Of a stretch of 64,000 nt of DNA, positions 3,391 to 57,326 are shown piece by piece. The position numbers were made by a program, and so were the translations under genes. Source of the DNA: an uncultured Croceitalea sp. (lineage in GTDB: Bacteria > Bacteroidota > Bacteroidia > Flavobacteriales > Flavobacteriaceae); NCBI GenBank assembly GCA_947495075.1, contig CANLXH010000001.1:1736001-1800000 (forward strand). Direction: 5' to 3'. Below the pieces are notes generated by a model, which saw only the letters and a program-made list of their open reading frames with translations, did no database searches and had not been told where the DNA came from. Each line of letters starts with the position of its first letter. Positions within the stretch are counted from its first letter, which is position 1.

Positions 3391-3433
3391 CAAAAGTAGC
3401 ACGGTGCTTTTCGTTAAATCATGATATTTATCA
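3391..3433 (-). promoter_or_regulatory. FNR-type operator and -7 element, usp
   Basis: On the minus strand the palindrome TGAT-AAAT-ATCA (3422-3433) is followed after 27 nt by TTTG within TACTTTTG (3398-3391). It lies just ahead of the USP start at 3372. Confidence 0.85.
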
Positions 3434-3452
3434 GCTTTTAGAAGAAATACAG

Positions 3453-4142
3453 TTAAAACCCATCTGCCAATTCTTGGAGCTTTTTTGGATTAGTTATACT
3501 AATTTTTTTACCTGAAGCTTTTAACAATCCTTCTTTTTTAAACTCCGAAATTATTCTAATACAAGATTCAGTTGCTGTACCAACCACATTAGCAATATCT
3601 TCTCTAGAAAGAGTAAGTATAAGAAAGCCTTCATTATCTTCTCCAAAATTTTTACTTAGATATAAAAAAGCTTCCGCTATACGTTGCTTTACCGTCTTTT
3701 GAGACATATTTACAATGACATCATCTGCCTCTTTTAAGTCATGAGCCATATGACGAAGTACTTCTAAAGAAAAGTTAGGATTGTTATGTAATGTATTTAC
3801 AATATCATCTTTTGGAATAAAACAGACCTCCATATCGCTAATTGCAGTAGCACTTAAATTTACTTTTTCTTCTGCAATTACAGAACGCTGTCCAATAACC
3901 TCCCCTTTACTTGCAAGTTTTACAATTTGGTCTTTACCGTTTGGACTTAGTTTGGCTAGTTTTGATACACCAGAGCGAACACAATATACTCCATTAAGCC
4001 TATCCCCTTCTTTAAAAATTATGTCTCCTTTTTTAACTGTTTTGTAAATTTTTGAATCGGAAACCTTTTTCAACTCCTCTTTGTTCATGGCTCGTAATGA
4101 GTTGAACTGGCGAACGATACAATTTTCACATCTGCTTTCCAT
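3453..4142 (-). CDS. Crp/Fnr family transcriptional regulator, FNR-like
   Basis: A 229-residue regulator with a cyclic-nucleotide-type beta-roll (about 20-135), a dimer helix and a C-terminal HTH (about 150-225). N-terminal C5-x2-C8 and C107 (in MEVCFIP, aligned with Cys122 of E. coli FNR) suggest an oxygen-labile Fe-S cluster, but the third N-terminal Cys of E. coli FNR is absent, so the fourth ligand is open. The recognition helix reads GTATESCIRII: Glu192 and Arg196 match FNR Glu209 and Arg213, with Ile195 in place of Ser212. It is divergent from ccoI and shares a single operator with it, so autoregulation is likely. It is the best candidate reader of the operator found 19 times in the window. 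Confidence 0.85.
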   Translation of the reverse strand: MESRCENCIVRQFNSLRAMNKEELKKVSDSKIYKTVKKGDIIFKEGDRLNGVYCVRSGVSKLAKLSPNGKDQIVKLASKGEVIGQRSVIAEEKVNLSATAISDMEVCFIPKDDIVNTLHNNPNFSLEVLRHMAHDLKEADDVIVNMSQKTVKQRIAEAFLYLSKNFGEDNEGFLILTLSREDIANVVGTATESCIRIISEFKKEGLLKASGKKISITNPKKLQELADGF

Positions 4143-4167
4143 GATTTTATTTTTATACCTGAAGTTG

Positions 4168-4241
4168 TAAAGGTAGTTTGGGTGAGTTGATTAAAACCTG
4201 ACTTATGTCATGTTTTAAGAACTATGCACTTTACATCTTTG
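4168..4241. promoter_or_regulatory. shared divergent FNR-type operator, fnr-like / ccoI
   Basis: The palindrome TGAC-TTAT-GTCA (4199-4210) is flanked at exactly the same distance (27 nt) by TTTG at 4238-4241 for ccoI and by TTTA, within TACCTTTA, at 4175-4168 for the regulator gene. One site can therefore serve both promoters. Confidence 0.85.
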
Positions 4242-4262
4242 CAAAGGGTATAAGCATAAATT

Positions 4263-6659
4263 ATGGATGGTACTAATTGTTATCATTGCGGTGAAGACTG
4301 CGATAATTTTAGTGTTGATTTTGATGAAAAACATTTTTGTTGCCATGGATGCAAAACAGTTTATGAGATTTTCGCTGATAACGATTTATCCTATTATTAT
4401 GACTTACAAGCTGCTGCTGGAGCCACTCCTAAGGCGATTAAAGGAAAGTACGATTTTCTCGATACTGATTCTATTGTTGAAAAACTAACTGAATTTAAAG
4501 ATGATAAATTACAACTAATAAATCTCTACATCCCACATATTCATTGTAGTTCTTGTATTTGGGTTTTAGAAAACTTAAACAAACTTAATTCTTCTATTAG
4601 AAACTCACAGGTAGATTTTCCAAAGAAAACAGTACGTATATCTTACTCTTCTTCTAAGTTTTCTTTAAAAGACTTAGTACTATTATTAGCTAAGATTGGT
4701 TATGAGCCTTATATCTCATTAGATGACTACGATAACAAAAAGAAATCTGTTAATCACGAGCTAATCTATAAACTTGGAGTTGCAGGATTTGCTTTTGGTA
4801 ATGTAATGTTTCTTTCTTTTCCGGATTATTTTGATTTACCATCCAATACTCCCTCAGGAGGAGAATTCTGGCTTAATCAATACCAAGATGTTTTTCGTTG
4901 GCTCATGTTTATTTTTTCTCTTCCAGTAGTCTTTTATGCCAGTTGGGGCTATTTTAAATCTGCTTTTAAAGGACTACGCTCTAGGGTTTTAAATATTGAT
5001 GTTCCTATTGCCCTAGGAATAGTCGTACTATTTTTAAGAAGTACTATTGATATTGTCTTTGAGTTAGGACCTGGCTTCTTTGACTCTCTTACTGGACTTG
5101 TATTTTTTCTATTATTAGGTAGATTTTTTCAACAGAAAACTTATTCATTCCTCTCTTTCGAGAGAGATTATAAATCCTATTTTCCAATAGCAGTTACTGT
5201 GATAAATTCTGAAAAAGAAGAAAGAACTACTCAGATTCACGATATAAAAAAGGGAGATAGATTATTAATTAGAAATGAAGAGTTAATTCCTGTGGATGGA
5301 ATTCTTCTCAATGGTAATGCTAGAATAGATTACAGTTTTGTAACTGGAGAATCTGAACCTGTTAGAAAAAAATCTGGAGATAAAGTTTTTGCTGGTGGGA
5401 AACAGTTGAACGGTGCTATTGAAATAGAAGCATCAAAAAAAATCTCTCAAAGTTATCTCACACAATTATGGAGTAATTCGGTTTTTCAAAAAAATAAAGC
5501 GGACACGTTTCAAACGTTGACTGATAGTATTGGAAAACGATTTACCATTGTCGTATTATCAATAGCAATCATAGCAACTGCGTTTTGGTTATATCATGAA
5601 CCAAGTAAGGCTATGAATGTTTTTACAGCTGTTTTAATAATTGCTTGCCCTTGTGCAATTTCACTCGCCGCACCTTTCACTCTAGGCAATATGCTTAGAA
5701 TTTTCGGTAGAAAAAAATTCTATCTAAAAGACACACAAACTATTGAACAGTTAGCACAAATTGACACTGCAATTTTTGATAAAACTGGTACGATAACCAC
5801 GTCCAAAAAGACCATTCCTATTTATCAGGGTTCATCTCTAAATAAAGATGAAGAGCTCCTTTTAAAAAATACGCTTAGGGCTTCTAATCATATTTTAAGT
5901 AGGTCTTTGTACAGAATTCTTGACGCTAATGATATTATAACGTTAGACACTTTTGAAGAGTATCTAGGGAAAGGAATCGAAGGCACTAAAGACAATAATC
6001 ATATTAAAGTTGGTTCTTCAGATTTTGTTAGTAAAAGGAAATTCCATGAAACCATAAATACTGCTGTACACATTAGTAGTAATGACAATTATAAAGGTAA
6101 ATTTATTTTTTACAATCAATATAGAGATGGGGTATCAGAAGTATTTAAAACCATGTCTAAAAACATGAAACTAGCAATTTTGTCTGGTGATAATGAGGGT
6201 GAAAAATTAAGATTGGAAAAACTATTACCAAAACTGACACCACTCTATTTCAATAAAAAGCCAGAACATAAATTGGAGTTTATCAAATCGCTTCAAGAGA
6301 AAGACAAAAAAGTACTAATGGTTGGTGATGGATTAAATGATGCAGGAGCGCTGGCACAGAGCAACGTTGGCATTGCTATATCAGAAAATGTAAATGTGTT
6401 TTCCCCTGCTTGCGATGGTATTTTGGATGCATCTAAATTCCAACAATTGTATCAATATATCCTTGCCTCAAAAAAGGCAATGCGCATCATCAAATTGAGT
6501 TTTGTCCTATCCCTATTATATAATGTTATTGGACTCTATTTCGCTATCACAGGCCAATTAGAACCTGTTATCGCGGCCATTTTAATGCCATTGAGTTCAA
6601 TAAGTGTGGTGGCATTCGCAACTGTTATGACGAACATTTTAGGAAGGAAAATAAAATAA
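4263..6659 (+). CDS. ccoI: copper-translocating P1B-ATPase for cbb3 oxidase assembly
   Basis: A 798-residue heavy-metal P-type ATPase of the CcoI/FixI kind. The N-terminus has a Cys-rich metal site (CYHCGEDC, then FCCHGC) and an HMA domain with CSSC (about 97-100). Transmembrane helices follow, with the metal-selecting C462-P-C464 in the sixth core helix, the phosphorylated D506-KTGT loop, and VGDGLNDAGA in the hinge. It exports or loads copper needed for the CuB centre of cbb3 oxidase in the inner membrane. It is the first gene of the cco group, and its promoter shares an operator with the FNR-like gene. Confidence 0.95.
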   Translation: MDGTNCYHCGEDCDNFSVDFDEKHFCCHGCKTVYEIFADNDLSYYYDLQAAAGATPKAIKGKYDFLDTDSIVEKLTEFKDDKLQLINLYIPHIHCSSCIWVLENLNKLNSSIRNSQVDFPKKTVRISYSSSKFSLKDLVLLLAKIGYEPYISLDDYDNKKKSVNHELIYKLGVAGFAFGNVMFLSFPDYFDLPSNTPSGGEFWLNQYQDVFRWLMFIFSLPVVFYASWGYFKSAFKGLRSRVLNIDVPIALGIVVLFLRSTIDIVFELGPGFFDSLTGLVFFLLLGRFFQQKTYSFLSFERDYKSYFPIAVTVINSEKEERTTQIHDIKKGDRLLIRNEELIPVDGILLNGNARIDYSFVTGESEPVRKKSGDKVFAGGKQLNGAIEIEASKKISQSYLTQLWSNSVFQKNKADTFQTLTDSIGKRFTIVVLSIAIIATAFWLYHEPSKAMNVFTAVLIIACPCAISLAAPFTLGNMLRIFGRKKFYLKDTQTIEQLAQIDTAIFDKTGTITTSKKTIPIYQGSSLNKDEELLLKNTLRASNHILSRSLYRILDANDIITLDTFEEYLGKGIEGTKDNNHIKVGSSDFVSKRKFHETINTAVHISSNDNYKGKFIFYNQYRDGVSEVFKTMSKNMKLAILSGDNEGEKLRLEKLLPKLTPLYFNKKPEHKLEFIKSLQEKDKKVLMVGDGLNDAGALAQSNVGIAISENVNVFSPACDGILDASKFQQLYQYILASKKAMRIIKLSFVLSLLYNVIGLYFAITGQLEPVIAAILMPLSSISVVAFATVMTNILGRKIK

Positions 6660-6669
6660 TCACGGAACA

Positions 6670-6712
6670 TGACAAATGTCATATGTGAAGGGAAAACGCG
6701 GACGTAGTTTTA
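6670..6712 (+). promoter_or_regulatory. FNR-type operator and -7 element, ccoS operon
   Basis: TGAC-AAAT-GTCA (6670-6681) is followed after 27 nt by TTTA within TAGTTTTA (6705-6712), 20 bp before ccoS. The site therefore centres near -41.5 and should drive ccoS-ccoNO-ccoQ-ccoP and probably ccoGH. Confidence 0.85.
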
Positions 6713-6731
6713 CAATCAAATTCAGGTAGGT

Positions 6732-6926
6732 ATGAGCGTAATATATGTGTTATTAGCAATCAGCATTGTGGTTGCTATACTCTTTTTCATAGCATTTATT
6801 GTTTCGGTTAAAAAAGGTCAATATGACGATTCATATACGCCCTCCGTACGCATGCTTTTTGAAGATGAATTAGTCATCGAAAAATCTTCCGAAGAAATAA
6901 AAATCGATAAAAATCCAACTAAATAA
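6732..6926 (+). CDS. ccoS: cbb3 oxidase assembly protein CcoS
   Basis: A 64-residue protein with one N-terminal transmembrane helix (about 3-26), a basic KKGQYDD junction and the conserved SVRMLFEDEL segment. Length and pattern match CcoS, a small inner-membrane factor needed for cofactor insertion into cbb3 oxidase in proteobacteria. It follows ccoI by 72 bp, with its own promoter in between, and is 12 bp ahead of ccoNO. Confidence 0.88.
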   Translation: MSVIYVLLAISIVVAILFFIAFIVSVKKGQYDDSYTPSVRMLFEDELVIEKSSEEIKIDKNPTK

Positions 6927-6938
6927 ACAAGAATAACT

Positions 6939-9137
6939 ATGGAAGTACAGCAGTTCTATTACGATAATAAAATCGTAAAAAACTTCCTCTACGCAACCAT
7001 GTTTTGGGGAATTGTAGGGATGTCCGTCGGGCTCTTATTGGCCTTTATGTTTATGTTTCCAAACCTTACCGATGGTATTTCATGGTTGAGTTTTGGTCGT
7101 TTAAGACCACTTCATACCAATGCCGTCATTTTTGCATTCGTAGGTAATGCCATTTTTGCCGGAGTCTACTACTCTACTCAACGGCTATTAAAAGCTCGTA
7201 TGTTTAGTGATGTACTCAGCAAATTTAATTTCTGGGGTTGGCAAGCCATCATCGTTGCGGCGGCAATTACGCTTCCTTTGGGATATACCACCTCTAAAGA
7301 ATATGCCGAACTCGAATGGCCTATTGATATTGCCATTGCATTGGTTTGGGTAGCCTTTGGAGTAAACCTTATAGGAACCATTATCAAAAGAAGGCAACGA
7401 CATATGTATGTTGCTATTTGGTTCTATTTGGGCACTTTTGTTACGGTTGCGGTACTTCATATTTTCAATAGCTTAGAACTTCCTGTAAGTGCTTTGAAAA
7501 GTTACTCTGTCTACGCTGGGGTGCAAGATGCACTGGTACAATGGTGGTATGGTCATAATGCGGTGGCCTTCTTTTTAACCACCCCTTTTCTAGGCTTGAT
7601 GTACTACTTTGTTCCTAAAGCGGCGAACAGACCTGTCTATTCCTATAAATTATCTATTGTACACTTCTGGTCCTTGATATTCATCTACATATGGGCTGGA
7701 CCGCACCACTTGCTCTATTCTTCCCTGCCGGATTGGGCCCAGAATTTAGGAGTTGCCTTCTCTATAATGCTTATTGCGCCCTCCTGGGGTGGTATGATAA
7801 ACGGTCTGTTGACGCTCCGGGGTGCATGGGATAAAGTCCGAACAGATCCTGTTCTAAAATTTATGGTAGTTGCAATTACTGGATACGGTATGGCAACCTT
7901 TGAAGGGCCTATGTTATCCCTTAAAAATGTAAATGCCATTGCACACTTTAGCGATTGGATTATTGCCCACGTACATGTGGGTGCCTTAGCATGGAACGGT
8001 TTTCTGGCCTTTGGAATGATTTACTGGTTGGTACCTAGAATGTTTAAGACAAAACTAGCATCGAAAGGCCTTGCCAATTTCCATTTTTGGATTGGCACTT
8101 TGGGAATCATTCTATACGCTCTCCCCATGTATGTTGCAGGGTTCACCCAGGCTTTGATGTGGAAGGACTTCAATCCGGATGGGACTTTAGTCTACGGAAA
8201 CTTCTTAGAAACCGTAAGCGAAATCATGCCCATGTACTGGATGCGTGCTATAGGTGGTAGCATGTATATTATAGGTGCTTGTGTCATGGTGTATAATGTT
8301 GTGATAACTATAAGACAAGGTAACAAAGTGGAAGATGAATTAGCAGAAGCCGCCACTTTAACGAGGGTTTCTAAGAAGAGAACAGCTGGAGAGACCTATC
8401 ATACTTGGTTGGAGCGTAAACCTATTCAATTGACAATTTTAGCTACCGTAGCTATTTTAATTGGAGGTATAGTACAGATAATACCTACAATACTGGTGAA
8501 GTCAAATATTCCTACTATAACCAGCGTCAAACCGTATAGCCCTTTAGAACTTGAGGGTCGAGACCTTTACATACGTGAGGGATGTGTGGGCTGTCATTCA
8601 CAAATGGTACGCCCATTCAGGAGTGAAGTAGAACGTTATGGAGAATATTCTAAAGCTGGAGAATTTGTCTATGACCATCCATTCCTTTGGGGTAGTAAAC
8701 GTACGGGACCTGATTTGCTGAGAGTTGGCGGTAAATATTCCGATAACTGGCACTTGAACCATATGTACGACCCACAGAGTACTTCTTCGGGCTCAATAAT
8801 GCCTGCCTATCAATGGTTAGTTCGTAACGAACATGACCGTAACGGAATACAAGATAAAATGGAAGCTATGGTCGCGTTAGGTGTTCCATACACAAAAGAA
8901 GATATTGCAAATGCCATGGTCAACATGGATGCACAGGCAACGCAAATCGAAAAGAACCTGTATACAGACCCCGACTTTGCCAAAACTTACGAAGCGGACA
9001 AAAAATACGCTACTGAGAACGGTCAAGATTTTATTGAAATGAGGGATAGAGAAATCGTTTCTCTTATTGCTTATCTCCAGCGTTTAGGTACAGATATCAA
9101 AATAAAAGAAACAAACGAAACCATATCACAAAACTAA
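6939..9137 (+). CDS. ccoN: cbb3-type cytochrome c oxidase, fused subunits I and II (CcoN-CcoO)
   Basis: A 732-residue fusion. Residues 1 to about 480 form the polytopic CcoN part with the heme b and CuB histidines (RPLHTNAVIF, VQWWYGHNAVAFF, GPHHLLY, HVHVGALAWNG). A linker and one further membrane helix (about 490-515) lead to the CcoO part with heme c site C549-VG-C552-H553, followed by SQMVRPFRSE. The fused form is usual in Bacteroidetes. The enzyme reduces O2 with high affinity in the inner membrane and pumps protons. It is flanked by ccoS and ccoQ in one operon. Confidence 0.96.
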   Translation: MEVQQFYYDNKIVKNFLYATMFWGIVGMSVGLLLAFMFMFPNLTDGISWLSFGRLRPLHTNAVIFAFVGNAIFAGVYYSTQRLLKARMFSDVLSKFNFWGWQAIIVAAAITLPLGYTTSKEYAELEWPIDIAIALVWVAFGVNLIGTIIKRRQRHMYVAIWFYLGTFVTVAVLHIFNSLELPVSALKSYSVYAGVQDALVQWWYGHNAVAFFLTTPFLGLMYYFVPKAANRPVYSYKLSIVHFWSLIFIYIWAGPHHLLYSSLPDWAQNLGVAFSIMLIAPSWGGMINGLLTLRGAWDKVRTDPVLKFMVVAITGYGMATFEGPMLSLKNVNAIAHFSDWIIAHVHVGALAWNGFLAFGMIYWLVPRMFKTKLASKGLANFHFWIGTLGIILYALPMYVAGFTQALMWKDFNPDGTLVYGNFLETVSEIMPMYWMRAIGGSMYIIGACVMVYNVVITIRQGNKVEDELAEAATLTRVSKKRTAGETYHTWLERKPIQLTILATVAILIGGIVQIIPTILVKSNIPTITSVKPYSPLELEGRDLYIREGCVGCHSQMVRPFRSEVERYGEYSKAGEFVYDHPFLWGSKRTGPDLLRVGGKYSDNWHLNHMYDPQSTSSGSIMPAYQWLVRNEHDRNGIQDKMEAMVALGVPYTKEDIANAMVNMDAQATQIEKNLYTDPDFAKTYEADKKYATENGQDFIEMRDREIVSLIAYLQRLGTDIKIKETNETISQN

Positions 9138-9142
9138 AAGTC

Positions 9143-9334
9143 ATGCTAAAATTTGTAAAAGGGTATATGGAAAGCATAGAAGATGTAGCAACTTATCCTA
9201 TGATATCGCTACTTATTTTCTTCATCTTTTTTCTAATTCTGTTTTGGTGGGTATTTACAACATCAAAAGAGCATATTAAAGAAATGAGTGCAATGCCATT
9301 AGATAATGATAACCAACAAAACTTAGAGATATGA
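9143..9334 (+). CDS. ccoQ: cbb3 oxidase small subunit, CcoQ-like
   Basis: A 63-residue single-span membrane protein: a short amphipathic N-terminus (MLKFVKGYMESIEDVATYP), one long hydrophobic helix (about 22-42) and an acidic tail. Position between ccoNO and ccoP and size match CcoQ/FixQ, which stabilises the oxidase complex. Its stop overlaps the ccoP ATG (9331), indicating translational coupling. Confidence 0.75.
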   Translation: MLKFVKGYMESIEDVATYPMISLLIFFIFFLILFWWVFTTSKEHIKEMSAMPLDNDNQQNLEI

Positions 9335-10203
9335 AGAGTTCACTTTCATGGCTTAGAGTCTTAGTACTATTCTTTACCATTTTCGGATTGATGGAGTTTT
9401 TTATTGATTCAGGAGATAAGCCAGCCTTTATTGCCTACCCAATGGCACAGTTATTCTTAGTTTTTGTTTTATTTCTTCTAATAGCGATTGAATTAATACT
9501 AACTGCTATTGAAAATATAATATTTCAAGCATTAAATGAGGAGGCTAAAAAAAAATATTTGGCCTCCAAATCAGAATCAAGTGGATGGGCTTGGGGGAAA
9601 AAAACGTATCAAAAATTATTGGGTTCCAAACCTATTGAAGCTGAAAGCGAAATTATTTTAGACCACAATTATGATGGTATTAAAGAATTGGATAACAAAC
9701 TTCCACCTTGGTGGGTATATATGTTCTATGCAACCATTCTATTTGGTGTAATTTATCTATTTCGCTTCCATATCTATAACGATTACACACAAGATATGGA
9801 ATATGAACAACAAGTGGCAGCTGCACAATTAGAAATAAAAGAATACAAGAAAAATGCTAAAGATTTGGTCGATGTTACTACTGTAGAATTATTGACCGAT
9901 ATAGGAGATTTAAAGGCTGGTGAGAAAATTTTTATGTCAAACTGCGTAGCGTGCCATATGGCAGATGGGGGGGGCGGAATTGGTCCTAACCTTACCGATG
10001 AATATTGGATGTTAGGCAGCGGCATTAAAAATGTTTTTAATACTATATCTGAAGGCGGTAGAGATGGCAAAGGCATGGTTGCCTGGAAACAAATTTTAAA
10101 GCCAGCGGAAATGGCGCAAGTAGCCAGCTATATCCTTGTAGAAATCAATGGTAAAGAAGCGGCCGACCCAAAAGCAACCGAAGGAGAAGTTTGGGAGGAT
10201 TGA
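9331..10203 (+). CDS. ccoP: cbb3-type cytochrome c oxidase subunit III, mono-heme CcoP
   Basis: A 290-residue c-type cytochrome subunit. It has two N-terminal hydrophobic segments (about 7-25 and 30-52), a cytosolic stretch, a third helix at PPWWVYMFYATILFGVIYLF (about 129-148) and one periplasmic cytochrome c domain with C205-VA-C208-H209 followed by GGGIGPNLTDEYW. Only one heme motif is present, whereas proteobacterial CcoP has two. CcoP passes electrons from donor cytochromes to CcoO. It is coupled to ccoQ by a 4-bp overlap. Confidence 0.92.
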   Translation: MKSSLSWLRVLVLFFTIFGLMEFFIDSGDKPAFIAYPMAQLFLVFVLFLLIAIELILTAIENIIFQALNEEAKKKYLASKSESSGWAWGKKTYQKLLGSKPIEAESEIILDHNYDGIKELDNKLPPWWVYMFYATILFGVIYLFRFHIYNDYTQDMEYEQQVAAAQLEIKEYKKNAKDLVDVTTVELLTDIGDLKAGEKIFMSNCVACHMADGGGGIGPNLTDEYWMLGSGIKNVFNTISEGGRDGKGMVAWKQILKPAEMAQVASYILVEINGKEAADPKATEGEVWED

Positions 10204-10322
10204 AAATACGCCTAAAAAAATAGAAGAACAAGGCTCAGTTTCTATGATAGCCACAGACGCAGTAATAATTGTTCTCAACTAACTAGGAAAATTACTGGAA
10301 TAAGGATTAAGAAAGAGGTATA

Positions 10323-11741
10323 ATGGCACAAGACCAAGAAAATTTTAGAGATTCCATCGGAACCATTAATGAAGAGGGTAAGCGCGCTTGGGTATTTCCT
10401 AAAAAGCCCAGTGGTAAATTCTGGAAATATCGTAAATACGTAAGCTACTTTTTATTGGTTTTTTTGATTTCGGTTCCCTTTATCAAAATCGATGGCAATC
10501 AGTTTTTGATGTTCAATGTATTAGAACGTCGTTTCAATATTTTCGGGTTCCCCTTTTGGCCACAGGATTTTCACTTATTCGTGATTTCCATGATTATCGG
10601 GGTCATCTTTGTAGCCTTCTTTACCGTAGCTTTTGGCCGTATTTTCTGTGGATGGATGTGCCCCCAGACTATTTTTATGGAAATGATATTTAGGAGAATA
10701 GAGTTCTGGATAGACGGAGACCGCGGTGCACAAATACGTTTAAATCGGCAAAAATGGGATGCAGAAAAAATTAGAAAACGTATTACAAAATGGATGGCTT
10801 TTTTTATTATTTCCTTTTTAATCGCAAACGTGTTTTTAGCCTATCTGATAGGAAGTGATAGATTAATACAATATATAACTGATGGACCTTTACAACATAT
10901 AAGTACCTTAATGTCCTTGCTCATTTTTACTGCTGTATTCTATTTTATTTTTGCTTGGTTTAGAGAACAGGTTTGTATTATCGCTTGTCCATACGGACGC
11001 ATGCAAAGTGTACTTCTCGACAACAAATCGATTGTGGTTGCTTACGACCATATGCGTGGGGAAGGAGAAAATGGTCGAAAAAAATTTCGAAAAAATGAAG
11101 ATAGGGAAATCTTAGGTCATGGCGATTGTATAGATTGTTTTCAATGTGTAAATGTTTGCCCCACAGGAATTGACATCCGTAACGGCACTCAATTGGAATG
11201 TGTCAATTGCACTGCCTGTATTGACGAGTGCGATACCATTATGGAAAAGGTAAACCTCCCAAAAGGTTTGATTCGTTATGCAAGCGAAGACGAAATCACG
11301 AAAAAGGAGAAATTCAAATTTACACCACGCCTAAAAGGTTATACCGCAGTACTAACAATTTTGACGGGTGTTTTGGTAGGAATGTTGTTTTTAAGAAACG
11401 ATTTGGAGGCTAACATCCTTAGGCTTCCCGGGCAACTCTATGAACATAAAGAAGGGAATATCATCAGTAATGTTTACACCTATAAGTTGGTCAATAAAAC
11501 CACTAAAGATGTAAACGATGTAAGCTTTAAACTCCTCTCCCATAAAGGATTTGTAAAATTAGTAAGAAACCAAGATTTTAAAGTGCCTGCTCAAGATTTG
11601 GCGGAGGGGACTTTGTTTATTGAAATCGATAATTCGGCCATTGAAAGTGATAAAGAAAAAGTAAAAGTTGGCGTGTATAGCGGCGATAAATTAATCGAAA
11701 CAACTCGAACTGCATTTTTGGCACCGAGGAGTTATAACTAA
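10323..11741 (+). CDS. ccoG: cbb3 oxidase accessory ferredoxin-like protein CcoG
   Basis: A 472-residue membrane protein of the CcoG/RdxA/FixG family: several helices in the first 240 residues (including GWMCPQTIFMEMIFRRIE and ACPYGRMQ), then two 4Fe-4S sets C269-x2-C272-x2-C275-x3-C279 and C293-x2-C296-x2-C299-x3-C303, another helix, and an Ig-like C-terminal domain. In proteobacteria CcoG reduces Cu(II) for cbb3 assembly. It follows ccoP by 119 bp without a visible operator and is likely part of the same operon. Confidence 0.94.
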   Translation: MAQDQENFRDSIGTINEEGKRAWVFPKKPSGKFWKYRKYVSYFLLVFLISVPFIKIDGNQFLMFNVLERRFNIFGFPFWPQDFHLFVISMIIGVIFVAFFTVAFGRIFCGWMCPQTIFMEMIFRRIEFWIDGDRGAQIRLNRQKWDAEKIRKRITKWMAFFIISFLIANVFLAYLIGSDRLIQYITDGPLQHISTLMSLLIFTAVFYFIFAWFREQVCIIACPYGRMQSVLLDNKSIVVAYDHMRGEGENGRKKFRKNEDREILGHGDCIDCFQCVNVCPTGIDIRNGTQLECVNCTACIDECDTIMEKVNLPKGLIRYASEDEITKKEKFKFTPRLKGYTAVLTILTGVLVGMLFLRNDLEANILRLPGQLYEHKEGNIISNVYTYKLVNKTTKDVNDVSFKLLSHKGFVKLVRNQDFKVPAQDLAEGTLFIEIDNSAIESDKEKVKVGVYSGDKLIETTRTAFLAPRSYN

Positions 11742-11748
11742 TAGCATC

Positions 11749-12195
11749 ATGAAAATAAACTGGGGAACAGCAATTGTAATCGCATTTGTAACATTCATAA
11801 GTTTCATTCTAGTTTTTGTTGTGCTTATGAGTATGGACAATCGGGCCAATCATGATTTGGTTACCGAAGAATATTACAAGGCAGAATTGGAGTATCAAAA
11901 GGAAATCGATGCCGAAAACAATGCAAACGAAAATTCCGCCGTACTCAACATAAAGAAAACAAAACAAGGATTGCTCGTAGCGTTTCCTGAAAAGGTAGAT
12001 TTTCAGAAAGTGAAAGGAAAAATATCCCTATACAGGCCATCTAACAAACACTTGGACTTTGATTTAGAGTTAAATCTGTCCAATGCACATTTGCTCATAC
12101 CTGAGAAACGTTTGTTGGATGGTCGCTGGGATATTAAAGTGTTTTGGGAATATGAAGGAGAAACGTATTTGTATAAAGAGAGTATCACGTACTAA
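11749..12195 (+). CDS. ccoH: FixH/CcoH family protein
   Basis: A 148-residue protein with one N-terminal helix (about 6-29), then a conserved acidic NHDLVTEEYYKAELEYQKEID region and a beta-rich periplasmic domain (about 60-148). This is the FixH/CcoH pattern; the protein helps mature or stabilise cbb3 oxidase together with CcoI. It starts 7 bp after ccoG. Confidence 0.88.
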   Translation: MKINWGTAIVIAFVTFISFILVFVVLMSMDNRANHDLVTEEYYKAELEYQKEIDAENNANENSAVLNIKKTKQGLLVAFPEKVDFQKVKGKISLYRPSNKHLDFDLELNLSNAHLLIPEKRLLDGRWDIKVFWEYEGETYLYKESITY

Positions 12196-12282
12196 AAAAT
12201 AGAAACAAGAATCAAGGCAAATAGATTCCCGCCGGAGTTTATCTTGAGCAAAGACAAAGGGTGGGAATGAAACAAAATAAAC

Positions 12283-12984
12283 ATGTTACTATCAGCCATC
12301 ATACTAGGTCTAATGGGAAGTTTGCACTGTATTGGTATGTGCGGCCCCATTGCTTTTATGCTTCCGGTAGACAGAACGAATTCGTACAAGAAATTCGGGC
12401 AGGTATTTCTTTATCATTTTGGCAGGTTATTAGCCTACGGAATCATTGGCCTTGTTTTTGGTCTATTGGGCAAAGGGCTTTATGTCTTCGGAATGCAGCA
12501 AAAACTATCCATTGCCATTGGTATTTTGATGATTGTTTTAGTACTTGTTCCGTATAAAACCTTTAGCAAATACAAACTGTCTAAACCACTGTTCAAAATC
12601 ATTTCAGGCATAAAGAATCGGTTGGGGCAAGAACTAAAAAAGAAAAGGCCAGATACTTTCTTGACTATAGGATTCCTAAATGGATTCTTACCCTGCGGAC
12701 TAGTATATATGGCGCTATTTGGAGCGATTGCAATGGGCAATGCCGCTGAAGGAAGCTTATATATGATTCTCTTTGGGGTCGGTACAGTTCCGTTAATGAC
12801 CTCGGCCATTTATTTCAGTAGACTTTTAAAAGGAACTATACGCCAAAAAGTACAGAAATTGATTCCCGTTTTTGTGGTTCTTATTGGTGCTCTTTTTATA
12901 CTACGGGGTTTGGGTTTGGGTATCCCCTACCTTTCTCCAGAACCAGTTTTTGATGTAGCTTCCAGTGCTATAGAATGTCATTAG
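12283..12984 (+). CDS. TauE/UreH-like transmembrane protein of the cco cluster
   Basis: A 233-residue protein with about six hydrophobic segments. The first helix carries GSHCIGMCGPIAF-type sequence (C-x3-C, here HCIGMC at about 16-21) and a later helix has FLPCGLVY; both are typical of the UreH/cytochrome c biogenesis transmembrane family (sulfite exporter TauE/SafE-like). Members next to cco genes are thought to move copper or reducing power for oxidase assembly. It is 87 bp downstream of ccoH and in the same direction. Confidence 0.75.
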   Translation: MLLSAIILGLMGSLHCIGMCGPIAFMLPVDRTNSYKKFGQVFLYHFGRLLAYGIIGLVFGLLGKGLYVFGMQQKLSIAIGILMIVLVLVPYKTFSKYKLSKPLFKIISGIKNRLGQELKKKRPDTFLTIGFLNGFLPCGLVYMALFGAIAMGNAAEGSLYMILFGVGTVPLMTSAIYFSRLLKGTIRQKVQKLIPVFVVLIGALFILRGLGLGIPYLSPEPVFDVASSAIECH

Positions 12985-16235: not shown

Positions 16236-16247
16236 TAAATACTCAAT

Positions 16248-17642: not shown

Positions 17643-17648
17643 AATATG

Positions 17649-17942: not shown

Positions 17943-17945
17943 TTT

Positions 17946-18407: not shown

Positions 18408-18421
18408 ATCTTTCTTATCTA

Positions 18422-18871: not shown

Positions 18872-18887
18872 GATTTGGGTTTTTGGA

Positions 18888-19954: not shown

Positions 19955-19977
19955 TGTTCTAGTTTAAAAAGAGTTGT

Positions 19978-20015: not shown

Positions 20016-20040
20016 GAAAAGAAATAACCACTAAAAGGTT

Positions 20041-22002: not shown

Positions 22003-22036
22003 CTTTTCTATATTAAGTGATTATTTAATTGTTTAT

Positions 22037-42014: not shown

Positions 42015-42066
42015 TTGGTCAACTGACCAATATCATAGTTTATAATTGACCTCGATTATATTTTTG
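42015..42066 (+). promoter_or_regulatory. FNR-type operator with overlapping palindrome, usp
   Basis: TGAC-CAAT-ATCA (42024-42035) is followed after 27 nt by TTTG in TATTTTTG (42059-42066). A second perfect palindrome TTGGTCAACTGACCAA (42015-42030) overlaps its left half. Confidence 0.87.
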
Positions 42067-44940: not shown

Positions 44941-45014
44941 TAAAGTTAATCTCCTTAAATTGAGTGTAAAATGATTTCTATCAGTTAAGCGATAAAAAAT
45001 ATTCCATTGCTTTG
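44941..45014. promoter_or_regulatory. shared divergent FNR-type operator, HMA-like gene / ROK kinase
   Basis: TGAT-TTCT-ATCA (44972-44983) has TTTG at 45011-45014 towards the ROK gene and TTTA in TAACTTTA at 44948-44941 towards the small gene, both at the standard distance. Confidence 0.86.
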
Positions 45015-46364: not shown

Positions 46365-46407
46365 TGACCAATATCATGGTTTTTAATACTGCTTAAAGTT
46401 AGTTTTG
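46365..46407 (+). promoter_or_regulatory. FNR-type operator and -7 element, usp
   Basis: TGAC-CAAT-ATCA (46365-46376) is followed after 27 nt by TTTG in TAGTTTTG (46400-46407). The operator is identical in sequence to the one at 42024-42035. Confidence 0.88.
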
Positions 46408-48137: not shown

Positions 48138-48177
48138 CAATTATCATTTGATAAGGTTTTTCGGTGTCTTATTTTTA
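48135..48177 (+). promoter_or_regulatory. FNR-type operator overlapping a stop codon, usp
   Basis: TGAC-AATT-ATCA (48135-48146) starts with the TGA stop of the upstream USP gene. TTTA in TATTTTTA (48170-48177) follows after 27 nt. Confidence 0.85.
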
Positions 48178-49621: not shown

Positions 49622-50461
49622 ATGAAGTATGAAACTACAGGAATTCTAAAGTCATCGGGAGAAAGAGCAAAATTTTCAATTGATAAACTCCATAGTTCAC
49701 TTAAACATAGCGGGGCTAATGAAAACCTCATAAATCGGATAATAAATACCATTGGCAACGAATTATATGAGGGTATTTCAACAAAAGAAATATACAATCG
49801 TGCATTTACACTGTTAAAGCAAAAGAAATCGGTTTTTGCTTCCAAATACAAATTGAAAAAAGCTATCTATGAATTAGGTCCCACAGGTTTCCCATTTGAA
49901 AAATTTGTGGCAGCTATTTTAGAATTTTCAGGATACAATGTGCAACTAAATCAAAATATATCTGGAATTTGTGTATCTCATGAAATAGATATAATTGCTG
50001 AGAGGAATAAAAAAATAAGTATTATCGAATGTAAGTTTCATGGAGAAGAAGGACGCAATTGCAATGTAAAAATACCCCTGTATATTAACTCACGATATAA
50101 TGATGTTATAGTCCATTGGGAGAATAAAAAGGAAAAGGGAAGAATTGAAAATGGTTGGGTTGTTACCAATACACGATTTACAAAAGATGCCATACAGTAT
50201 GGAGAATGTGCAGGATTGTACCTGCTGAGTTGGGATTATCCAAAAAATGATGGGTTAAAAGAGCGAATAGATAGATTAAGACTCTATCCCATAACTGTTT
50301 CTACTTTATTGACCAATAGAGAAAAACATTTTCTACTAAGCAGGGATATCGTTTTGTGTAGACAACTTATAGGTGATAAATTTTTTCTCGACCATTTAAA
50401 GGTTTCCGAGGAACGAAAAGAAAAAATATACAGCGAGTTAGGCCAATTATGTAATCCCTAA
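49622..50461 (+). CDS. ATP-cone domain fused to a Mrr-like nuclease
   Basis: A 279-residue protein. The N-terminal ATP-cone (about 5-90: LKSSGERAKFSIDKLHSSLKHS, TKEIYNRAFTLL) is the nucleotide-sensing domain known from ribonucleotide reductase and NrdR. Then comes a restriction-endonuclease-like domain with FEKFVAAILEFSGYNV, D123, and E136-C-K138 in IIECKFH, the PD-(D/E)xK core of Mrr. DNA cleavage controlled by ATP/dATP levels is a reasonable guess. It is followed after 2 bp by an MBL RNase gene, so they are cotranscribed. It is not next to a methylase or a restriction locus. Confidence 0.75.
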   Translation: MKYETTGILKSSGERAKFSIDKLHSSLKHSGANENLINRIINTIGNELYEGISTKEIYNRAFTLLKQKKSVFASKYKLKKAIYELGPTGFPFEKFVAAILEFSGYNVQLNQNISGICVSHEIDIIAERNKKISIIECKFHGEEGRNCNVKIPLYINSRYNDVIVHWENKKEKGRIENGWVVTNTRFTKDAIQYGECAGLYLLSWDYPKNDGLKERIDRLRLYPITVSTLLTNREKHFLLSRDIVLCRQLIGDKFFLDHLKVSEERKEKIYSELGQLCNP

Positions 50462-50463
50462 TT

Positions 50464-51837
50464 ATGAATAGAATTAAAATTCACTTTTTAGGTGCTGCAG
50501 GAACGGTAACAGGATCTAAGACATATTTAGAGACTTCGGAGCTAAATATTATGGTCGACTGCGGTATGTTCCAAGGGTTAAAAGAACTACGGAAGATGAA
50601 TTGGAGACCGCTGCCCATAGACGTTCCTAAAATTGATTTTGTCTTACTAACCCATGGTCACCTAGATCATACTGGATATCTCCCCAGGCTACTAAAAGAG
50701 GGGTTTAATGGAAAAATAATAGGAACGTCTCCCACCTTGGCAATTACTGAAATTATATTAAGAGATAGTGCTAAAATACATGAAGAAGAGGCAGAAAAAG
50801 CTAATACCGAGGGGTTTTCCAAGCATGATCCAGCGTTGCCATTTTATAACTTAAAAGATGCAGAAACAACATTTAATTTTTTTGAAGCACAGGAACTTGA
50901 ACAATGGAAACAACTTTCAAAAAATATCAAGTTACGATTTGTATACAATGGGCATATCATAGGCTCCTGTTTTATAGAGCTCGAAATTTTTGGAAAGCTT
51001 TTTGTTTTTTCTGGAGATATTGGTAGACAGAAAGATTATCTATTAGATTCCCCAAAATTTCCAGAGTGGGCAGATTATGTATTTATGGAAAGTACTTATG
51101 GTCATAAATTACATCCAAAAGAGGATATTACTGATTTGTTAACCACTCTTATTAAAGAAACTATTACTAATAGAGGTAATCTTATTATTCCTTCTTTTGC
51201 CGTAGAACGGCTTCAATCACTAATGTATGTGTTATGGAAACTTTATCGTCAGAATAATATTCCTAACATTCCCATTTTTGTAGACAGCCCGATGGGAAAC
51301 AATGTGCTTAGTGTTTTTCAACGCTTTCCAAAATGGCATAAACTATCTTTAGATGAGTACCACGCAATGTGCAATCATATTAATATCATAAGTTCTTATG
51401 CAGATACCTGGAAAACCATAGATGACCCAAGACCAAAAATTATAATAGCGGGTAGTGGAATGGTAACTGGAGGAAGGGTTTTGACGTATTTAAAACAACT
51501 AATGAGCATCCCTACCACAACCATTCTATTAGTAGGTTATCAGGTTGAAGGAACTCGAGGCAGACTATTATTGGAAGGTACACATGAGCTCAAAATATAT
51601 GGGAAACATCTTTCTGTAAAGGCCACAGTAAAACATCTAGAAAGTCTTTCAGCTCATGCAGACCAAGCAGAGCTTATCCATTGGTTAAGTGGTATAAAAA
51701 ATATTCCTGAACTCATTTTTCTAATACATGGTGAACTTACCGCTTTAAATAGTTTACGTGTTAAAATAAAGGATACTTTCGGTTGGAAGGTGAGCATTCC
51801 TTTCTTATCTGAGGAAGCCGAGATTTTAATACCCTAA
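50464..51837 (+). CDS. metallo-beta-lactamase/beta-CASP RNase
   Basis: A 457-residue protein: MBL fold with H64-G-H66-L-D68-H69, a beta-CASP domain (about 180-370, with FMESTYGH and the Ser/Asp-rich VDSPMG) and a C-terminal RMMBL domain with SAHADQAELIHWL. This matches bacterial homologues of CPSF73, which are mRNA endo- or exonucleases. The cytosolic target is unknown. It follows the ATP-cone nuclease by 2 bp and lies among low-oxygen-regulon genes, so RNA turnover in dormancy is possible. Confidence 0.88.
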   Translation: MNRIKIHFLGAAGTVTGSKTYLETSELNIMVDCGMFQGLKELRKMNWRPLPIDVPKIDFVLLTHGHLDHTGYLPRLLKEGFNGKIIGTSPTLAITEIILRDSAKIHEEEAEKANTEGFSKHDPALPFYNLKDAETTFNFFEAQELEQWKQLSKNIKLRFVYNGHIIGSCFIELEIFGKLFVFSGDIGRQKDYLLDSPKFPEWADYVFMESTYGHKLHPKEDITDLLTTLIKETITNRGNLIIPSFAVERLQSLMYVLWKLYRQNNIPNIPIFVDSPMGNNVLSVFQRFPKWHKLSLDEYHAMCNHINIISSYADTWKTIDDPRPKIIIAGSGMVTGGRVLTYLKQLMSIPTTTILLVGYQVEGTRGRLLLEGTHELKIYGKHLSVKATVKHLESLSAHADQAELIHWLSGIKNIPELIFLIHGELTALNSLRVKIKDTFGWKVSIPFLSEEAEILIP

Positions 51838-51843
51838 TCAACC

Positions 51844-51886
51844 TGATTTATATCATTTTATAATGAATAGGCTACACTTATCTTGA
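51844..51886 (+). promoter_or_regulatory. FNR-type operator, coiled-coil gene (weak -7)
   Basis: TGAT-TTAT-ATCA (51844-51855) lies 6 bp behind the RNase stop. The -7 region reads TATCTTGA, matching only partly at the standard distance. Confidence 0.65.
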
Positions 51887-51945: not shown

Positions 51946-52377
51946 ATGAAAAACACCTACTCATCACAAACTCAAAATAAAAAAATAGAAGAACTGCATT
52001 ACGAATTACAAGATTGGAAATCTAACTTACATTTCATTAAAGATGAAATCAAGTTCATTAATCAACTACTTAATTCCTATGTTTTTCAACCAAACACACC
52101 GAATCTTTTTGAACGACTACAGGATTATCAACACCGTTTAAAAAAAATAAAAAAAAGCAAAACAGAATTACAGAAAGCTATTGCTCAACATGAAAATAAT
52201 TTAGGTGGCATGATCGAGTGCACCGATGAATACTGCGACTTACAGTATTATAAAAAACACGATACTCTTAAAACTAAAATAGTAGATTCCATTATAAGGT
52301 TTAAGGATCTTAAATCAGAAATATTCAACTATGCAGGTGGTATTTTAAAAAAAAGAAAACCAGTGTCCGACAATTAA
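51946..52377 (+). CDS. coiled-coil protein, paralogue of the gene behind Hsp20
   Basis: A 143-residue helical protein rich in Lys, Glu and Gln, with no signal. KIEELHYELQDWKSNLHFIKDEIKFINQLLNSYVF matches the corresponding W-x-x-x-L-x-FIK-[DE]-E-x-x-F-[IL]-N-x-L segment of the protein at 52991-53446. The rest is coiled coil (ERLQDYQHRLKKIKKSKTELQKAIAQHENNL). I do not recognise a family. It has an operator upstream and lies just before hsp20. Confidence 0.6.
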   Translation: MKNTYSSQTQNKKIEELHYELQDWKSNLHFIKDEIKFINQLLNSYVFQPNTPNLFERLQDYQHRLKKIKKSKTELQKAIAQHENNLGGMIECTDEYCDLQYYKKHDTLKTKIVDSIIRFKDLKSEIFNYAGGILKKRKPVSDN

Positions 52378-52392: not shown

Positions 52393-52435
52393 TGATTTTG
52401 GTCATTTTTAAAAACTAAGGAACAGCATACTTTTA
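52393..52435 (+). promoter_or_regulatory. FNR-type operator and -7 element, hsp20
   Basis: TGAT-TTTG-GTCA (52393-52404) is followed after 27 nt by TTTA in TACTTTTA (52428-52435), 40 bp before hsp20. Confidence 0.85.
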
Positions 52436-55092: not shown

Positions 55093-56493
55093 AATTGGGC
55101 TAAAAATCTTCCCAAAGCCTTCTTTCAATTTTTCAGTATAAGGTCGCTGTAAATATTCCTCATAAGAGAGCATTCTGCTAATATGTATATCCTTTAAAAA
55201 ATCTTCTTTCAATGCCATTGCAGTTGATTTATCATAAATGATGGCATTTACTTCATAGTTCTGTTCAAAGCTACGGTCGTCCAAATTAGCAGTGCCGATT
55301 GTTGAAATTTCGTCATCACTTACAATAATTTTACTATGTAAAAAACCATCCGGGAATAGATAGATTTTAATACCAGAATTAAGCAGCGATTCAAAATAAG
55401 AACGCACACACCACCCCACAATTTTACTATCGGTCTTTTCAGAAATCATCAATCGTACATCAACTCCACTAAGAGCTGAAGTTTGTAGTGCTTGTTTAAT
55501 TGCTTGTCCAGGAATAATATACGGGTTTGTTATATAGAGGTAATCTTTTGCCTGATTAATGATAGTGAAATAGGTTTGTTCTAACGATGGAAAATCATCA
55601 TCTGGACCACCGGAAACTATTTGCACAAGGGTATTGGCTACAGTAAGATTAGCTATTTTAGACAATACAACAGGCCGTATTGTCTTTTGACTTACTAAAT
55701 ACCAATCCATAGCAAAAACATGGTCTAGCTGGTGCGCAGCATCTCCTTCCAGTCTAAGGTGCATGTCATGCCAATTTCCTAAAACAGTATCTCCTTTTAA
55801 GTATTTATCCGAAATATTTATCCCTCCCGTAAATGCAATTTCACCATCGATTACAATTATTTTTCGATGGTTTCTATAATTTAAAGAGGAAAGAAACCTA
55901 CCAAATTTAAAGGGAAGAAATGGATAGTACTCCACCCCTATTTCTTTCAATTTTTTGAGATAAGATTTACTTAATGAAAAACTTCCTATACTATCATATA
56001 TCATTCTAACTTTTACACCGCCGTTTATTTTTTTCTTGAATAATGATAATAACCGATTGGCAAGTTCTCCTTCTTCAAAAATATAGTATTGAAGATGTAT
56101 TTGAATCTTAGCCTTATCCAACGCTATAAAAATTGATTCGAAAGTGGTTTTTCCATCCTTAAGTAATTGTACGTTATTATTGCTTGTCGGATGGAAAAAA
56201 GAGTTTTTATATACAAGTTTCATCAGTTTTTTATGCACCTCACTTGTTTCAAAATCTATTTTAAAAAAAGGCTGTGGAAAATATATAGAAGCTTCTTTCT
56301 TTAATTGCATTAATTTATTTTTCCTTCTATTTCTTCCCAATAACAAATACAATAATATTCCACCAATGGGTATTGTAAAAATAGCTAAGAGCCAAGACAA
56401 AGATTTTGAAGGTTTTGCACCGTATAATAAAATTCGGATTACAATAGATATTCCTATGACTATATATATGATAGTGAAAATCGTTATCCACAC
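55087..56493 (-). CDS. cls: cardiolipin synthase (phospholipase D family)
   Basis: A 468-residue protein: two N-terminal helices (about 3-25 and 33-52), then two PLD domains with HKD motifs, NHRKIIVIDGEIAFTGG (H-x-K-x4-D) in the first and LHSKIIVSDDEISTIGTANLD in the second, plus DDRSFEQNYE. This is the Cls architecture that joins two phosphatidylglycerol molecules to cardiolipin in the inner membrane. It lies behind tonB with a 42-bp gap and may share its operator promoter. Confidence 0.9.
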   Translation of the reverse strand: MWITIFTIIYIVIGISIVIRILLYGAKPSKSLSWLLAIFTIPIGGILLYLLLGRNRRKNKLMQLKKEASIYFPQPFFKIDFETSEVHKKLMKLVYKNSFFHPTSNNNVQLLKDGKTTFESIFIALDKAKIQIHLQYYIFEEGELANRLLSLFKKKINGGVKVRMIYDSIGSFSLSKSYLKKLKEIGVEYYPFLPFKFGRFLSSLNYRNHRKIIVIDGEIAFTGGINISDKYLKGDTVLGNWHDMHLRLEGDAAHQLDHVFAMDWYLVSQKTIRPVVLSKIANLTVANTLVQIVSGGPDDDFPSLEQTYFTIINQAKDYLYITNPYIIPGQAIKQALQTSALSGVDVRLMISEKTDSKIVGWCVRSYFESLLNSGIKIYLFPDGFLHSKIIVSDDEISTIGTANLDDRSFEQNYEVNAIIYDKSTAMALKEDFLKDIHISRMLSYEEYLQRPYTEKLKEGFGKIFSPIL

Positions 56494-56535
56494 AGAACTA
56501 TTTTTAAGAAAGACTTTCGATAATTGTTAATAAAG

Positions 56536-57264
56536 CTACATCATCAGCTTAAAATTAACAGGTATGCTATAAGGCACATTCACCGCTATTCCACGTTGTT
56601 TGCCAGGAATCATTTGAGGTAAAGAAGCCATAATCCTTTTAGCTTCTTGTTCCAACAATTTATCTGGTCCTCTAGTTTTAATACTAGTAACATGTCCATT
56701 ACTGTTTATAATAAACTGTACATATACCTTTCCTTGAATACCCATCTCTAAAGCAATTGGAGGGTATTTAAAGTTTTCCTTAATATGTTCTTGAACTTTT
56801 TTTTGAAAACAAACTCTTTTGTCAGCATTGGTGCCATTTTCACAACCTGGGAAAATAGGTACATCTTCAATAACCGCAAAGGGAACGGTAATTTCTTCTT
56901 CTACCTCTTCCATCGAAACATCATCAACTAAAAGGACAGGAGCATCTATAGAAGCTTCTTGATCTGTTTCTGTACTTTGTATGATTGTTTCTTCAATCTC
57001 TTCAGTATCCTCAACAACTTCGATAATTGTAGGGGCGGAAGGTGGCAGAGTTGGTGGAGGGGGTGTGACTTCTTTTGTTATTGGAACTTCTTCATCTAGA
57101 TCTGGTTCCATTGTGTGAGCAATAATAGCTTCACTAATAGAAGTATCATAACTTTTCAACTCTAGTGCTCTCCAAGTCAGAAATAGAACCAGTGCAAGTC
57201 CAATTACAAAGTAGAGTCCGCTATTCTTATTTAAATCTGCTTTTGGATTTTTTTTTGGTTTCAT
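56536..57264 (-). CDS. energy transducer TonB
   Basis: A 242-residue TonB-like protein: one N-terminal helix (about 16-35), a Pro-rich and acidic linker (EVTPPPPTLPPSAP, about 65-78), and a C-terminal TonB domain (about 150-242: CFQKKVQEHIKENFKYPPIALEMGIQGKVYVQFIINSNGHV). A CxxxK insert (PGCENGTNADKRVCF) is typical of Bacteroidetes TonB. It transfers energy from the proton gradient to outer-membrane receptors. The upstream region has the operator. Confidence 0.9.
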   Translation of the reverse strand: MKPKKNPKADLNKNSGLYFVIGLALVLFLTWRALELKSYDTSISEAIIAHTMEPDLDEEVPITKEVTPPPPTLPPSAPTIIEVVEDTEEIEETIIQSTETDQEASIDAPVLLVDDVSMEEVEEEITVPFAVIEDVPIFPGCENGTNADKRVCFQKKVQEHIKENFKYPPIALEMGIQGKVYVQFIINSNGHVTSIKTRGPDKLLEQEAKRIMASLPQMIPGKQRGIAVNVPYSIPVNFKLMM

Positions 57265-57283
57265 AACCTTCTGATTTTACATC

Positions 57284-57326
57284 TGAAGGTAAATGAAAGA
57301 GGTAGTTTAGACTATGACATTGGTCA
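57284..57326 (-). promoter_or_regulatory. FNR-type operator, tonB (imperfect -7)
   Basis: TGAC-CAAT-GTCA on the minus strand (57326-57315) is followed after 27 nt by TTCA in TACCTTCA (57291-57284), one mismatch from the TTTR consensus. The flanks resemble those of the operator at 42024. Confidence 0.72.

Follow-up and report, generated by a model that had tools for sequence, protein, structure and literature searches.

We analyzed a 64,000-nucleotide stretch of DNA from an uncultured Croceitalea sp. (Flavobacteriaceae; assembly GCA_947495075.1, contig CANLXH010000001.1, positions 1,736,001 to 1,800,000 of the forward strand), which we call the window and whose own positions are used throughout. 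Within it, a short dyad, TGAY-N4-RTCA, recurs between genes at one fixed distance from the promoter box. The best explanation, to which we give a probability of about 0.8, is a class II low-oxygen regulon with its own operator and with two regulators, encoded in the same gene island, that share this operator: an FNR-type protein and a fusion of a response regulator receiver to a CRP-type output, the latter next to a histidine kinase gene. Taken by itself, the reading as a low-oxygen, class II regulon of the CRP/FNR type is very likely. The promoter class is real, looks functional, and is widely conserved, and its kind, CRP/FNR class II, is already known.

The operator and its promoter geometry

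The window holds 21 exact TGAY-N4-RTCA dyads, compared to 4.10 expected from shuffled sequence (standard deviation, 2.14; maximum, 10), and none of 100 shuffles reached 21. Nineteen of these dyads lie between genes, the number of copies that a first-pass annotation of this DNA had reported. The dyads at 53251 and 54711 lie inside open reading frames (ORFs) and lack the box, and we dropped them. A TTTR tetramer begins 27 nt past the dyad, which is 33.5 bp from the dyad center, in 19 of 42 directions, again the earlier count, while the next best gap had 4. The longer box TAnnTTTR was found at gap 27 in 15 of the 42 directions and in at most one at every other gap checked (range, 5 to 59). When we took the one-mismatch dyads of the window, none of their 151 directions carried a box at gap 27. 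The peak at gap 27 and this absence together indicate that the dyad, the box, and the distance are coupled. Four further directions had been described as weaker and are as described: 35755 minus (TAACTTCG), 57315 minus (TACCTTCA), 51844 plus (TATCTTGA), and 36809 plus, which is shifted by one. All site scans were pattern matches, with the reversed pattern and shifted gaps as controls.

In the transcription start site (TSS) map of Flavobacterium psychrophilum, the TAnnTTTG box occupies positions -12 to -5 (PMC9723704). Taking the box position from this other flavobacterium, the 27-nt gap would place the dyad center at -41.5, which supports the earlier proposal of a class II-like center near -41.5. 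The predicted promoter has the operator [AC]TGAY-N4-RTCAT with its dyad at -47 to -36, a T tract at -33 to -30, and TAnnTTTR at -12 to -5. Positions that had not been used to select the 19 window sites follow this layout, with T at -12 in 16 of 19, A at -11 in 18 of 19, and 57 to 84% T at each position of the run from -33 to -30. The base 5' of the dyad is A in 12 sites, C in 7, and T in none, and the base 3' of the dyad is T in 17 of 19. The outer base had been called relaxed, which these counts do not bear out; the preference is clear and is not the one of the E. coli-type TTGAT.

Distribution in the genome and the family

Across the whole genome (3.73 Mb), dyad-N27-TTTR matched 33 times, with 19 matches in the window, versus 9 for the reversed pattern. 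With TAnnTTTR required, there were 18 sites genome-wide, and 15 of them fall in the window within 49 kb (p = 3e-24 under uniform placement). The three full sites outside the window (L001, L030, and L008) have gene starts 62, 70, and 96 nt from the first base of the dyad, and the genes there, named by reading, encode an OxyR-like LysR protein, a metallo-beta-lactamase-fold protein, and a protein of unknown function. The site at L008 resembles one in the relative G001 (C1:203450). Allowing one mismatch gave 46 matches versus 32 in the control, 28 of them one-mismatch sites (8 in the window and 20 outside); the 20 outside do not exceed background, and we make no claim for such sites.

The same architecture is found far beyond this genome. 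In 59 genomes (our own and 58 relatives), there were 565 matches versus 22 for the reversed pattern, and moving the box gave totals of 359 over the eight smaller gaps (44.9 per gap) and 396 over the eight larger gaps (49.5 per gap). In 199 genomes of the family, our own included, 2674 matches compared with 100 reversed ones, with at least one match in 177 genomes and at least five in 150. Another order of the same class (28 genomes) gave 139 matches versus 15 reversed, and 149 genomes of other classes mostly gave 0 to 2, the highest being 8. These counts show an architecture that is mainly confined to this family. Equal numbers of hits in control sequence, which the first-pass annotation had named as the outcome that would speak against the operator, did not occur when checked with patterns; the exact spacing far exceeded the reversed pattern and the shifted gaps both in the genome itself and in its relatives.

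The promoter class is thus family-wide, and its packing into one island varies between genomes: 8 of the 11 matches of G003 fall within 33 kb and 10 of the 15 of G034 within 67 kb, and the sites of G024 are dispersed. In G032, three near-identical operator-promoter copies within 3 kb (C1:589168, 590456, and 591717) inflate its count of 53.

We then compared the gene neighborhoods of sites in 20 stretches from nine relatives, of which the G032 stretch held none of the compared genes. A site lies 5' of ccoNO in all eight relatives in which the gene was read, 5' of ccoI in all eight read (with TTTR but no TA, as in the window), 5' of hemN in six of six, and 5' of the cytochrome c-nos genes in two of two (G002 and G034). 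The USP (universal stress protein) gene that follows the nearest fusion relative also has a site in three of three cases (G014, G018, and G034). Between the FNR-type gene, or its tandem paralog, and ccoI, one dyad is followed by TTTR at 27 nt on either side in six of six relatives read and in the window. The FNR-type protein would activate its own gene and ccoI from this one common dyad. Both divergent promoters would have this operator centered at -41.5, so two polymerases would probably have to alternate there.

Two candidate regulators for one operator

Three proteins of the genome match PF13545. Two pass the cutoff, and both are encoded in the island; the third, on contig C3, scores 21.8 bits and falls below it. 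The first-pass annotation had read the regulator as FNR. This stands as far as the CRP/FNR-type class II assignment goes and fails for a single FNR, since there are at least two CRP-type candidates.

The FNR-type regulator (3453 to 4142, minus strand; 229 amino acids) has PF00027 (1.3e-19) and PF13545 (1.8e-16) domains. All 30 rows compared (our own genome and the 29 best-scoring relatives) share the cysteines C5, C8, C54, and C107. In an alignment with the FNR chain 9qlt, C5, C8, and C107 match C20, C23, and C122 of E. coli FNR, which together with C29 we take to be its ligand cysteines; the place of C29 is held by Asn, and C54 stands opposite Ala. With C29 replaced and C54 extra, we labeled the protein FNR-type and not FNR. 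It probably carries an oxygen-labile Fe-S cluster, and the odds lean slightly toward C54 as a cluster ligand. A single-sequence structure model had a mean pLDDT of 47, too poor to place C54. By score, the best solved match is another CRP/FNR-family protein, 2gau.

The recognition helix of this protein reads TATESCIR, and TATESxIR is kept in 28 of 30 rows. E191 and R195 (numbered in alignment A1, with the start Met uncounted) are invariant in 14 of 14 rows and keep the helix Glu and Arg of FNR, presumably E209 and R213. The Ser in the E. coli FNR helix recognizes the outer T, and the FNR-type protein has Ile in this place, a change that would fit the changed outer base. Co-variation of recognition residues with the motif, at other residues, was described by Rodionov et al. 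(PMC1274295, section 8). It is highly probable that the FNR-type protein binds the operator. A tandem FNR-type paralog with 30 to 34% identity is present in three relatives (L124:6796-7527 in G003, L137:17516-18211 in G004, and L139:6997-7710 in G006). Its recognition helix is altered (SPEYIIN or similar), and its set of cysteines is incomplete.

The second candidate (40002 to 41054, plus strand) joins a receiver, a cNMP-type domain, and HTH_Crp. D9, D52, and K104 of the receiver are conserved in 12 of 12 fusions, and the recognition helix of the protein reads IATESLIR. FixJ combines a receiver with a LuxR-type helix-turn-helix, and the fusion does not fit that definition, as its output is of the CRP type. 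FixK is a CRP/FNR protein that lacks the cluster cysteines and uses the operator of FNR; five fusion proteins that we read have one to three cysteines, which are scattered. Immediately upstream, the histidine kinase gene (38486 to 39991, plus strand) encodes a FixL/DosP-like first PAS domain, HisKA, and HATPase_c. The best solved relatives of this PAS domain are DosP and FixL (about 5e-14), and by alignment H66 and R86 occupy what we take to be the positions of the proximal heme His and the distal Arg. Among kinases beside fusions in our own genome and the relatives (14 rows), the His is present in 10, and the Arg is kept in 8 of these 10.

A scan of named genomes returned mostly unrelated receivers; of the 80 loci, 14 align with the greater part of the fusion. 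These come from Aquimarina, Salinimicrobium, Flavobacterium sp. 7A, Jiulongibacter, Mucilaginibacter, Arcticibacter, Sphingobacterium, and metagenome genomes, the best relative being from an uncultured Aquimarina sp. (69%). The heme His is present in 13 of 13 kinases found beside the 14 fusions, with the Arg kept in 7 of 13; no kinase was found beside the named fusion L167. With a heme-type PAS kinase, a conserved receiver, and a CRP output, the pair resembles FixL together with FixJ and FixK joined in one protein. The kinase would bind heme through its FixL/DosP-like PAS domain, sense oxygen, and phosphorylate the fusion, so that kinase and fusion would amount to a FixL-FixJ-FixK chain cut to two proteins. 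Oxygen sensing through heme by this PAS domain is likely.

Co-occurrence over the 59 genomes ties the sites to both candidates. We grouped the genomes by the presence of an FNR-type match (best E value about 3e-46 or lower) and a full-length fusion match. Genomes with neither (n = 17) had a median of 1 site match (range, 0 to 3), those with only the FNR-type protein (n = 30) had a median of 8.5 (0 to 22), and those with both (n = 9) had a median of 21 (12 to 53). Three genomes with only the fusion, G014, G034, and G029, had 24, 15, and 7 matches. Site counts with any regulator differ from those with neither (p = 9e-9). The dyads could instead bind a regulator of another family, such as the Rrf2 protein at 23295, whose gene is located in the island and has one of the sites before it, or be a sequence habit of AT-rich intergenic DNA. 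Since the shuffles, the reversed pattern, and the shifted gaps disfavor a chance origin, site number tracks CRP-type regulators, and the -41.5 position suits activation, we regard this as very improbable.

The three fusion-only genomes bear on whether the FNR-type protein alone owns the operator, with the fusion binding elsewhere and merely sitting in the island. They are 100% (G014), 99% (G034), and 88% (G029) complete, and none of the 13 of their 15 PF13545 matches that we read, two weak ones of G029 being left out, has the four-cysteine pattern; one protein of G014 (L148) does contain several cysteines, but these are spaced differently, and its helix is not the same. G014 and G034 still have sites 5' of ccoNO, ccoI, and hemN. 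When 44 sites from fusion-only genomes were compared with 36 from FNR-only genomes, drawn from 15 loci each, the two sets had the same outer base and box, unselected positions included, and T stood 5' of the dyad in 4 of 44 and 1 of 36 sites, respectively. The recognition helices of the two proteins also agree: the fusions keep the Glu and Arg in 12 of 12 rows and ATE[ST]xIR in 8 of 12. Sole ownership by the FNR-type protein draws on the recurrence of its gene with the shared dyad in six of six relatives, on the median of 8.5 sites in the 30 genomes that lack the fusion, and on a difference in spacer between the two site sets. On balance we consider it unlikely, and binding of the fusion to the same operator as the FNR-type protein is probable. 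A tree separates the FNR-type proteins from the fusions with moderate support (83/93 and 93/84), and it places two further CRP proteins (from G014 and G034) within the fusion side and the tandem paralogs within the FNR side.

The converse arrangement, in which the fusion does most of the regulation in this genome and the FNR-type protein plays a secondary part or is confined to its own locus, is suggested by the position of 11 of the 19 intergenic dyads at or beyond 35.7 kb, near the kinase, the fusion, and the USP genes. Yet G001, G003, G004, and G006, of the same genus, lack a full-length fusion match, encode the FNR-type protein, and carry sites at cco, at USP, and, where read, at hemN genes, which makes this arrangement improbable. 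We thus return to two regulators that most likely share one operator; binding, sensing, and activation of expression in this organism are what we infer from these comparisons.

Several observations count against this interpretation. The FNR-type protein is below the cutoff of the NCBIfam Fnr models (best, NF008365, 119.4 bits versus 228), and the kinase is below that of the FixL model (NF041777, 99.7 bits versus 850). The main kinase of the fusion-only genome G029 lacks the heme His, three kinases have no alignable heme PAS domain (in G008, the second in G018, and a partial second in G029), and no kinase was found beside the second fusion of G014 within its stretch. Another residue stands in place of the distal Arg in 2 of 10 kinases of relatives and in 6 of 13 in the named records, and of the 14 named fusions only 5 have full sites beside them (L159, L160, L161, L162, and L171). 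G054, G027, and G033 have 0, 1, and 2 sites despite a counted FNR-type protein, the match in G027 starting at residue 35. The spacer contains more A in the FNR-only set, its first base being A in 31 of 36 FNR-only sites versus 18 of 44 fusion-only sites, and further CRP paralogs in FNR-only genomes may also bind.

Class II promoters of proteobacterial FNR and FnrN have TTGAT-N4-ATCAA centered at -41.5. The window resembles these systems in the CRP/FNR fold, the dyad with a 4-bp spacer, the -41.5 center, the cbb3, hemN, and nos targets, and the placement of the regulator's own gene under the operator. It differs in having A or C and not T as the outer base, a Bacteroidota -33/-7 promoter, no third cysteine ligand position, and an invariant cysteine at residue 54. 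In the rhizobial hFixL-FxkR-FixK plus FnrN system, a heme kinase branch and an Fe-S branch likewise converge on one operator (anaerobox) and control cbb3; that system has three proteins, whereas here receiver and CRP output are in one, and it belongs to a different phylum (PMC7888657). In Caulobacterales, a FixLJ-FixK branch replaced FnrN and came to act on existing FNR sites once the Fe-S protein was lost, as may have happened here, but the candidate substitute in G014, G034, and G029 is the receiver-CRP fusion (PMC4999443). The HcpR2 regulons of Bacteroides and others involve the same superfamily and partly the same phylum, with recognition residues that co-vary with the motif; they differ in their motif (GTAAC-N4-GTTAC), in their hcp targets, and in that HcpR2 lacks the FNR cysteine motif (PMC1274295).

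Among the full-text matches listed, no title or opening of an abstract reports an FNR operator in flavobacteria or this pairing of kinase and fusion, supplements and most subscription papers being outside this scope. Three points stand out as new: an operator found across the family, its probable use by two oxygen sensors, one of which seems to have replaced the other in some lineages, and the altered set of cysteines. There is about an even chance that the low-oxygen program of Flavobacteriaceae generally uses one promoter-locked operator read by two oxygen sensors that act independently: an FNR-type protein with a new ligand set (C-x2-C-x45-C-x52-C) and a one-step FixL-to-CRP system able to take over the whole regulon after FNR-type loss, the regulon being packed here in one island beside both. 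If true, lineages in which one sensor has apparently taken the place of the other at a common operator would offer a natural experiment in regulator exchange without operator rewriting.

Predicted target genes in the window

An in-frame start lies 11 to 43 nt past the predicted TSS in 18 of 19 directions, the exception being ccoNO (222 nt). For hemN, ORF 31046, the USP genes at 41134 and 46405, and the ROK gene, we picked by hand the next in-frame ATG over the listed start. All targets below are predictions from operator position and direction.

The leftmost operator (3422 to 3433, minus; box TACTTTTG, 3398-3391) would drive a USP gene (2479-3372). The shared operator at 4199 to 4210 has box CATCTTTG (4234-4241) on its plus side toward ccoI and box TACCTTTA (4175-4168) on its minus side toward the FNR-type gene itself. 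The operator at 6670 to 6681 (plus; box TAGTTTTA, 6705-6712) precedes ccoNO and its 222-nt leader. The cbb3 targets, ccoI, fused ccoNO, ccoP, ccoG, ccoH, and a DsbD-like gene, span 4263 to 12984 on the plus strand. CcoN and CcoO are fused into one protein (6939-9137; NCBIfam NF011053).

A second shared operator (23205 to 23216) faces the cytochrome c and nos genes on its minus side (box TACATTTG, 23181-23174) and the Rrf2 gene on its plus side (box AATCTTTG, 23240-23247). The nosZ cluster (13515 to 23158, minus) is of the Sec-dependent type, with nos names other than nosZ given by reading. The candidate target hemN (24649 to 26046, minus) lies behind the operator at 26059 to 26070 (minus; box TAGCTTTG, 26035-26028), and the operator at 26107 to 26118 (plus; box TAGTTTTA, 26142-26149) would drive TauE-patatin-DUF6544-DnaJ genes. 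Two minus-strand operators follow, one at 32231 to 32242 (box TACATTTA, 32207-32200) for ORF 31046-32182 and one at 32639 to 32650 (box CACCTTTA, 32615-32608) for a small HMA-domain ORF (32307-32576, minus; 89 amino acids; PF00403, 1.9e-7).

Farther on, the operator at 35755 to 35766 (plus; box TAGATTTG, 35790-35797) is aimed at pfkB, and its weaker minus box points toward HlyD-ABC genes. The weaker operator at 36809 to 36820 (plus; TTTA shifted by one) has DUF302 as its nearest gene, 418 nt off. The operator at 38451 to 38462 (minus; box TAAATTTG, 38427-38420) would serve ORF 37985-38398. That at 41083 to 41094 (plus; box TACATTTG, 41118-41125) would drive the USP gene directly 3' of the receiver-CRP gene, and that at 42024 to 42035 (plus; box TATTTTTG, 42059-42066) a run of USP genes. 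The third shared operator, at 44972 to 44983, faces a ROK kinase gene on its plus side (box TTGCTTTG, 45007-45014) and a small ORF (44671-44925, minus; 84 amino acids, no Pfam match) on its minus side (box TAACTTTA, 44948-44941). USP genes are again the predicted targets at 46365 to 46376 (plus; box TAGTTTTG, 46400-46407) and, for one gene, at 48135 to 48146 (plus; box TATTTTTA, 48170-48177). The last three operators lie at 51844 to 51855 (plus; weaker) before ORF 51946-52377, at 52393 to 52404 (plus; box TACTTTTA, 52428-52435) before hsp20, and at 57315 to 57326 (minus; weaker; box 57291-57284) before the TonB gene.

The target families are cbb3 (fused CcoNO, CcoI, CcoP, CcoG, and CcoH), Sec-dependent NosZ, HemN, PfkB, ROK, Hsp20, DnaJ, and TonB, plus USPs, whose Usp domain was found in five of five scanned, with four further ones named by reading. 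Domain and family scans of the window proteins and the reading of the relatives' loci agree with the earlier list of controlled genes as a coherent low-oxygen set. In F. psychrophilum under oxygen limitation, cbb3 rises strongly and heme synthesis genes are also up, and the main text of that paper does not mention Fnr or Crp (PMC9723704). The fixed-spacing motif offers a ready prediction of the flavobacterial low-oxygen regulon, including small genes missed by length cutoffs. The small ORFs at 32307-32576 and 44671-44925 were found only through predicted promoters aimed at them at the right distance.

In the stress part of the island, an ATP-cone/Mrr-type protein is encoded beside a beta-CASP metallo-RNase (49622-51837), and the same pair lies beside USP genes in G034 (L130). 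In the nos cluster, two adjacent similar small ORFs (17946-18871) overlap by 28 bases and are, by reading only, flavin/pyridoxine-oxidase-like.

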